Shown piece by piece: positions 26,557 through 27,851 of a stretch of DNA of 32,563 nt. Each line of letters opens with the position of its first letter. Positions within the stretch are counted from its first letter, which is position 1. Source of the stretch: Candidatus Saccharimonadota bacterium (GTDB lineage Bacteria; Patescibacteriota; Saccharimonadia; Saccharimonadales; UBA4665). The notes under the pieces were generated by a model, which was not told the origin of the DNA, made no database searches, and was given only the letters and a program-made list of their open reading frames with translations. The stretch covers positions 1 through 32,563 of the forward strand of contig DAHWQR010000023.1 in NCBI GenBank assembly GCA_027340655.1, given 5' to 3'. Made by a program: the position numbers and the translations under genes.

Positions 26557-27723
26557 CTAACTATTAATGAAGGTTAAAGCGTATCCTACCTTACCGGCTC
26601 TTCCGGCTCGTCCGATACGGTGAATATAGTCAGAGTAATTATTAGGTTGGGAATAATTTATAACGTGCGTAATGTCTGGCACGTCAATTCCACGCGCCGC
26701 TACGTCTGTTGCTACCAGTATCTTGACTTCGTCGTGCTTAAACTTGCTTAGTGAACGTTGGCGTTGTCCTTGGCTCTTTCCGCCATGAATTGAGTCAGCG
26801 CTAAAGCCGCGGGCAATTAATTCGTTAGATAGGCGTTCAACACCACGCTGAGTGTCGTCAAAAATGATCACCTTGCTTACTTCCTTGCTAATTAGCAAAT
26901 CGTGCAGCTTAGAAATCTTTTCGCTGGGGTGCGAGAATCGAACTACATTTTGATTAATGCTTGAGCTGGAGTCGCTGGTCTTAACTAATATTGATAGCGG
27001 ATCTTTTGAGAAGGTTTCGATTAATGATTTGACTCTAGTATCTAGCGTCGCCGAAAAGAAGAATGATTGACGGATTGGGTTTAGCTGCTGCAGGATATTT
27101 TTGACGCTTACCAAAAAACCCATGTCTAACATGCGATCGACTTCGTCTAATACTACAATGCTAAATGTGCCGAGCTTAATGCTGCCGCGGTCCATATGAT
27201 CCTTGATCCGGCCGGGAGTACCAACTACTACTTGAGGTGCATTCCTAAGGTCTCTTAATTGTTGGCCAATACTTGCACCGCCAATAAGTACGGCGCTGCG
27301 AAGGTTGCTGCCTCGAGCAAAAGAAACAATGTCGGAGTTAATCTGCTGAGCTAACTCTCGGGTTGGAGCAATAACTAAGGCTCGTGAATTACTAAGCATA
27401 ATTTTGTGCAGTAAAGGAAGAGCAAAGGCTGCCGTCTTGCCAGTCCCGGTGTCGGCGACACCAATTATGTCCCTTCCTTCAAGCGCAGGAAGAATAGCCT
27501 GGTCTTGAATGGGCGACGGCTGGACATAACCCTTGGCGCGCAAATTGGTCTTTAGCAGGGGGTTAATATTAAAATCCTCGAAACTGTGTTTAGCAACGTA
27601 GACTTCGGTTTCAGAAGCTTGAGCGCTATTCACGAATTTAGCAGGGTCAATGTAAGCCTTTTTGATACCACGAGAAGCTGAGCCTTGTCGGCGTGGGGGG
27701 TGATTTGATGAGTGATAAGACAT
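26557..27723 (-). CDS. DEAD-box RNA helicase
   Basis: GVADTGTGKTAAF, APTRELAQQ, VVGTPGRIKD, VLDEVDRMLDMGF, FFFSATLD, DVAARGIDVPDITHVINY, HRIGRAGRAGK. Confidence 0.95.
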   Translation of the reverse strand: MSYHSSNHPPRRQGSASRGIKKAYIDPAKFVNSAQASETEVYVAKHSFEDFNINPLLKTNLRAKGYVQPSPIQDQAILPALEGRDIIGVADTGTGKTAAFALPLLHKIMLSNSRALVIAPTRELAQQINSDIVSFARGSNLRSAVLIGGASIGQQLRDLRNAPQVVVGTPGRIKDHMDRGSIKLGTFSIVVLDEVDRMLDMGFLVSVKNILQQLNPIRQSFFFSATLDTRVKSLIETFSKDPLSILVKTSDSSSSINQNVVRFSHPSEKISKLHDLLISKEVSKVIIFDDTQRGVERLSNELIARGFSADSIHGGKSQGQRQRSLSKFKHDEVKILVATDVAARGIDVPDITHVINYSQPNNYSDYIHRIGRAGRAGKVGYALTFINS

Positions 27724-27730
27724 AAAAAAA

Positions 27731-27804
27731 GAATCCTTTATTAGTTAGTTGTTTAGTTATACTGCGGTTGTTGAAATCGAGTAATAACTTACTAACCCGG
27801 ATTC
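27731..27804 (-). promoter_or_regulatory. structured 5' UTR with SD-sequestering three-segment inverted repeat
   Basis: GAATCC/GGATTC, GTTAGT/ACTAAC and AGTTAT/ATAACT are collinearly nested. The 3' GGATTC arm contains the SD (AAAGGA). Confidence 0.45.
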
Positions 27805-27822
27805 ATCAATTACAATGCTTGT

Positions 27823-27851
27823 ATAATATCACAAAATTAACAGACTAACAA
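27823..27851 (-). promoter_or_regulatory. promoter of DEAD-box helicase: TTGTTA-N17-TATTAT
   Basis: Minus strand TTGTTA(gtctgttaattttgtga)TATTAT; predicts a 5' UTR of about 90 nt. Confidence 0.55.

Follow-up and report, generated by a model that had tools for sequence, protein, structure and literature searches.

A conserved Shine-Dalgarno-burying leader of a Saccharibacteria DEAD-box helicase gene and its probable alternative fold

Translational riboswitches and ribosomal-protein leaders work through a segment with two possible partners, one lying upstream and the other in the Shine-Dalgarno (SD) region. The DEAD-box helicase DeaD of Escherichia coli has been proposed to be under feedback through its own leader, and structured RNA is also found in Saccharibacteria-type genomes, for example the LOOT motif and other candidate RNAs of candidate phyla. 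In the case of E. coli cspA, a new transcript can take an SD-exposed fold in the cold, and it is this fold that is translated (PMC9947658). CrhR of Synechocystis, another DEAD-box helicase, is reported to be autoregulated at both the transcriptional and the post-transcriptional level in a temperature-responsive manner, by a mechanism that was left open (PMC3485376). Our literature search, which covered open-licence papers, returned no description of the leader that is presented here, which precedes a helicase gene of Saccharibacteria. It has no counterpart in Rfam 15 and seems to be a new conserved RNA element of these ultrasmall, mostly uncultivated bacteria.

The helicase locus and the distribution of its leader

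The window, a stretch of 32,563 nucleotides (contig DAHWQR010000023.1), belongs to a Saccharibacteria-type genome of 535 kb in 36 contigs, whose nearest named relatives are Saccharibacteria metagenome-assembled genomes. It encodes a DEAD-box helicase whose best solved relative is CshA; CshA is also its nearest NCBIfam model, with a score below the cut-off of that model. The gene starts with an ATG at 27723 on the minus strand and shows the following layout.

27846..27851, minus strand: -35-like hexamer TTGTTA (read from the sequence)
27823..27828, minus strand: -10 hexamer TATTAT, extended, with TGA before it (read from the sequence)
27724..27816, minus strand: predicted leader of 93 nt, from the predicted start A27816 to the base before the ATG (match to covariance model R1 at 27712-27818, E 1e-10)
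27734..27739, minus strand: SD, AAAGGA (read from the sequence; predicted unpaired fraction about 1% at 37 °C in the full leader)
27724..27730, minus strand: U7 run between P1, the outer stem of the fold described below, and the AUG (at least five U in 64 of 77 homologous leaders)
26557..27723, minus strand: DEAD-box RNA helicase of 388 aa (domain matches to DEAD and Helicase_C)

The promoter, TTGTTA-N17-TATTAT, matches at 9 of 12 positions and carries a TG ahead of the -10. In homologues, TGCTATAAT-like versions of the -10 lie in the same place, 6-7 nt ahead of a conserved AUUGU. An earlier reading of this locus from the sequence only had placed the promoter, three paired 6-bp segments, the SD and the T7 run, and all these coordinates are correct on the minus strand. 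Its leader of about 90 nt was likewise well located and comes to 93 nt when counted from A27816, the transcript start itself being a prediction.

How widely is this leader kept? Of 100 genomes of the order searched with R1, which was built from 26 homologous leaders, 65 contain exactly one match each. All 77 distinct matches contain the helicase start codon, with the same helicase gene directly downstream each time, and in the matches examined only the helicase gene lies downstream of the element. Among 147 genomes drawn from the class, 28 have a match, and one of these 28 belongs to a different family that lies outside the order; in a phylum-wide search of 380 genomes the matches fell only in the same order. 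This class-wide conservation is a point that the sequence-only reading did not contain.

The leaders of homologues at 53-96% protein identity follow a common plan, which begins with an extended -10, AUUGUU, (A)AUGAAUCCGGGU and a variable part, and continues with ACUCGAUUUCAUU, ACAAUCG, a further variable part, AAAGGAUUC, the U-run and the AUG. A known Rfam family was ruled out as its source: against Rfam 15 there was no match in the window at the gathering score, and the loci of 22 relatives gave no leader match at E<=1.

Genomes without a match to R1 fall into two groups: 22 of 39 lack a close helicase homologue, and the other 17 have one behind a leader that is diverged or rearranged. Since several of the 22 are 99-100% complete, the helicase is dispensable in the class.

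Helicase genes are also preceded by other kinds of leader. Family f35 (L185, L187, L231-L243) has a second conserved plan on the same helicase gene, AUUGCAUU..AUGAAUGUCGAGCCUCUUUC .. AAAUAUCCUCUCGCUGUUCU .. CUGCA .. CGAAAGGGUUAUU, in which the SD is predicted to pair with UAUCC. The f35 leaders are more diverged; a subset keeps the outer stem in other letters, and most pair the SD elsewhere or weakly. In three Moranbacteria loci (L033, L035, L039) the helicase leader, at about 190 bases ahead of the start, folds into a different long structure, in which an invariant hairpin CGCUGUAUGCGACAUACAGC is accompanied by UUUACUUUU-like segments that pair over a long range with AAAAGUAAA-like ones. A contig labelled Moraniibacteriota (L030) carries the helicase with a Saccharibacteria-type leader, its outer stem being AUGAAUC/GAUUCAU and its U-run absent, through either mis-binning or transfer. 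Two contigs labelled Spirochaetes (L026, L028) have in common, ahead of their DEAD-box helicase genes, a conserved and apparently structured stretch that does not resemble the Saccharibacteria leader. About 190 bases upstream of one Patescibacteria helicase (L032) lies a nearly perfect, very long hairpin of -74 kcal/mol, which could be an inserted inverted repeat.

A fold that buries the Shine-Dalgarno sequence

The sequence-only reading had proposed that the leader forms a long hairpin with the SD in its outermost 3' arm. This fold, here called state A, consists of three nested helices.

27799..27804, minus strand: P1 5' arm GAAUCC, a segment also used by state B (RNAfold, compensation, arm-swap)
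27731..27736, minus strand: P1 3' arm GGAUUC, overlapping the SD (RNAfold, compensation, arm-swap)
27791..27796, minus strand: P2 5' arm GUUAGU (RNAfold, arm-swap)
27740..27749, minus strand: P2 3' arm ACUAACUAAU, in two near-equal registers (sequence, RNAfold, arm-swap)
27784..27789, minus strand: P3 5' arm AGUUAU (RNAfold, arm-swap)
27755..27760, minus strand: P3 3' arm AUAACU (RNAfold, arm-swap)

The core GGA of AAAGGA sits within GGAUUC, the outermost 3' arm. The inner 3' segments had been given as ACTAAC (27749-27744) and ATAACT (27760-27755) on the minus strand; the two inner helices have alternative, nearly equal registers one repeat unit apart (ACUAAC or ACUAAU), and it is the sequence ACUAACUAAU of its 3' arm that lets P2 pair in both.

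RNAfold assigns the leader -17.4 kcal/mol, outer stem included. Judged on this one predicted fold, the hairpin is marginal and lies modestly above chance, with 8 of 200 shuffles folding as well (z -1.76). The comparison across genomes carries more weight. The outer stem shows changes on both sides at 4 of 7 pairs. When P1 and four inner pairs are scored as one set, all 500 shuffles stay short of the real alignment on each of five measures. RNAalifold agrees for the outer stem, which is all that its plain mode returns; with RIBOSUM scoring it returns state B. Replacements identified by eye include GAACCC/GGGUUC, GAUCC/GGAUC, UGAUCC/GGGUCA and AGAUCC/GGAUUU. Among f35 and other outliers the stem is rebuilt, again by eye, as GAAUAC/GUAUUC in L229, L245 and L248, and comparable rebuilding is visible as GAAUGU/ACAUUC in L189 and as AAUGAUCU/AGGUUAUU in L181.

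In the inner helices the letters vary freely while the pairing stays. Their own arms reach a mean of -14.1 kcal/mol versus -8.5 for swapped arms (z -19, 0/5000), with a reversed-arm control at z -2.7; for the outer stem the arm-swap gives z -5.7 over all 77 leaders and only -1.8 over 16 non-redundant ones. The SD is paired with a probability of 0.96; shuffles give 0.77, and 66 SD-led leaders taken from a related genome give 0.65. A tree-based pairwise covariation test found no significant pair in either state A or state B; the set holds few substitutions, and we therefore regard this outcome as uninformative and let it weigh on neither side. A chance hairpin is rejected on the cross-genome comparison despite the marginal z of the single sequence. 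The proposed hairpin with its SD in the outer 3' arm is thus borne out by RNAfold, compensation and arm-swap. Its proposer had held that missing covariation in homologous leaders would speak against it; what these leaders display is compensation in the outer stem and arms that fit their own partners. Read from sequence, the SD-burying structure is well supported.

Does this hairpin sense heat? A thermosensor had been suggested, and the SD is indeed paired within the hairpin, as expected if warming melted the structure and set the SD free. The predicted opening of the SD, however, averages 3-6% over 10-58 °C, which leaves the SD paired to 94% or more on average throughout this range; in the window the predicted opening stays at 0-10%. 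A heat RNA thermometer of the ROSE or fourU kind was rejected, as no opening of the SD is predicted until above 58 °C; the fourU feature, UUUU opposite the SD, is absent in the window, where the GGA of the SD faces UCC. We regard a heat-type thermometer as very improbable.

A competing 5' hairpin

State B, a second arrangement that had not featured in the earlier reading of this locus, emerges both from RNAalifold with RIBOSUM scoring and from the fold of L082, the closest relative.

27812..27816, minus strand: outer helix 5' arm AUUGU, at the transcript 5' end (alignment pairing, arm-swap)
27761..27765, minus strand: outer helix 3' arm GCAGU (alignment pairing, arm-swap)
27802..27809, minus strand: middle helix 5' arm UUGAUGAA (alignment pairing, arm-swap)
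27768..27775, minus strand: middle helix 3' arm UUCAACAA (alignment pairing, arm-swap)
27795..27799, minus strand: inner helix 5' arm CGGGU (alignment pairing, arm-swap)
27778..27782, minus strand: inner helix 3' arm ACUCG (alignment pairing, arm-swap)

The pairs are AUUGU with ACAAU (GCAGU in the window), (A)AUGAA with UUCAU(U), and CGGGU with ACUCG, and the fold spans the transcript 5' end through GAAUCCGGGU together with the ACUCG..UUCA..ACAAU region. Its 5' arm starts at the predicted first base of the RNA, and the SD is left free. Because state B takes up the GAAUCC of P1, the two states are mutually exclusive.

In the alignment, 84.5% of the state B cells pair, a share that drops to 32-50% once the partner is displaced by 1-3 columns. 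The arm-swap gives z -5.1 (0/5000) and, for the 16 non-redundant leaders, z -3.2, with the reversed-arm control at 0.4. State B is also rebuilt in divergent leaders, with UAGAAGUGAA opposite UUCGUUUCUA in L018 and L021, and UAUGAA opposite UUCGUA in L143 (the same leader as L004). Its pair counts do not exceed those of column shuffles; state B fails to beat the shuffles and the per-pair null because its columns vary little. Just before the SD is made, the partner of the SD is already paired at 0.29 versus 0.14-0.20 in controls, which lends weak support to state B at that length. We treat state B as an alternative fold that is probable rather than proven, and less secure than state A.

Two other explanations touch on this second fold. 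The leader could be a static SD-masking hairpin that holds the helicase at a low constant level, state B being incidental; state A is strongly predicted and conserved by itself. This is improbable in our view, as the copies preserve the complementarity behind state B, and the conserved AUUGU of the 5' end is partnerless in state A. The central ACUCGA, UUCAU and ACAAU, in turn, are strongly conserved beyond the needs of one fold, which could mark a candidate binding site at which one fold is stabilised by a ligand or by a protein, either the helicase or some other RNA-binding one, following the logic of ribosomal-protein leaders and riboswitches. The double use of these segments in states A and B accounts for much of their conservation, though, and the gene downstream is the helicase alone, with no ligand-linked gene; a binding site of this kind is rather improbable.

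When would state B exist at all? Its GAA-UUC pairs have a predicted probability of 0.87 once transcription is just past ACAAU, 0.73 ten bases later and 0.23 just before the SD is made; in the full leader this falls to 0.03, where P1 stands at 0.87. Since equilibrium already prefers the inner helices of state A before the SD is made, state B would be relevant only if kinetically trapped. In the complete leader at 37 °C, state A is predicted to beat folds with a free SD by about 6.6 kcal/mol (in the window, -17.4 against -14.0). The barrier from B to A, estimated along a heuristic path, is about 14 kcal/mol at 37 °C and rises to 18 at 15 °C, which by this estimate would be high enough for state B to persist if formed first. 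For two close relatives (L112, L127) the prediction for the full leader has state B as the dominant fold; the balance between the states is therefore a fine one in the clade of the window.

Possible modes of control and comparison with known systems

The reading that we favour, with a little less than even confidence, sees in the leader a bistable cis-regulatory RNA that acts on translation and serves the helicase gene alone; through it the helicase, possibly along with cold, would control its own translation. Fresh transcripts would fold into state B first and be translated from their free SD. State B would then refold to state A, the predicted stable end state, across a high barrier, and GAAUCC would pair with the SD-bearing GGAUUC and block the ribosome. 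An abundant DEAD-box helicase, as an RNA-refolding enzyme, would speed this conversion and thereby exert negative feedback; a shortage of helicase, or cold, would prolong state B and raise expression. We infer the regulation by the leader and, from predicted energies, the order of folding and its barrier. A self-unwinding feedback switch had been suggested by the sequence-only reading, and it is plausible because every element found sits on the helicase gene and nowhere else, while the heat thermosensor offered beside it is unsupported. A bolder version, possible but doubtful, makes the leader a sensor of RNA-folding capacity: a trapped fold would be converted to the SD-burying one by the helicase's own job, and the cell would read helicase activity directly, throughout Saccharibacteria.

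Temperature could also pick the fold by itself, in the manner of cspA and with no feedback by the helicase. The two alternative folds, a type of gene that is often cold-induced and the higher barrier predicted at 15 °C are all consistent with such a cold sensor, and cspA exposes its SD in a cold-formed structure (PMC9947658). Yet equilibrium favours the SD-burying fold at every temperature computed, more so in the cold, and any cold response must therefore be kinetic. A sensor driven by temperature alone is quite unlikely.

The U-run, whose significance had been overlooked, bears on a further alternative. Five or more U adjoin the AUG in 64 of 77 leaders versus 3 of 325 ORFs from a related genome and the window, one of the three being this helicase gene, and blocking of the SD alone gives no explanation for this position. 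Such a run could act as the tail of a terminator or as a spacer without structure. Following straight after the stem, it could complete state A as an intrinsic terminator before the AUG, with state B as antiterminator and the helicase or another factor deciding; mutually exclusive folds are the classic layout of such a transcription attenuator. The base stem, however, has just 6-9 bp with about three G-C pairs below a very long arm, and a terminator scan found no compact G-C-rich terminator stem-loop. The U-run is absent in 13 of 77 leaders and in several distant relatives, where P1 and the pairing of the SD are kept; moreover, the stem invariably includes the SD, a feature that a terminator could do without. 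As copies lacking the U-run keep the SD pairing and the scan returned no compact terminator, we rank control of translation above attenuation, which is unlikely, although both may act.

If feedback by the helicase holds true, its dosage would shift a 93-nt leader between two folds and alter translation. The leader would then be a compact, testable model for studying how a general enzyme of RNA remodelling gauges its own activity. Inducible control in Saccharibacteria still requires development (PMC11665869), and the leader may serve as a natural expression-control part for these bacteria.

How does this leader relate to what has been described elsewhere? In contrast to the LOOT motif and similar RNAs, it is without an Rfam match (E<=1, 22 loci). 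With the riboswitch and ribosomal-protein-leader platforms it has in common that one segment, GAAUCC, is shared between a probable upstream hairpin and the pairing of the SD, but it has a single gene as its target and no matching Rfam family. Like CrhR and DeaD, it concerns a DEAD-box helicase whose expression is proposed, here from predicted folds, to depend on its own activity; it differs in its compact, conserved, putative SD-burying switch, none being described for CrhR or DeaD in the literature covered. Compared with cspA, the gene, the sequence and the length are others, and the closed form is predicted to be favoured at all temperatures. The two leaders would nevertheless resemble each other in alternative folds that differ in SD exposure, which are predicted here and supported to different degrees, and both stand ahead of a gene for a protein that remodels RNA structure. 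Both cspA and CrhR are best taken as analogies for this leader rather than as classes of which it is a member.
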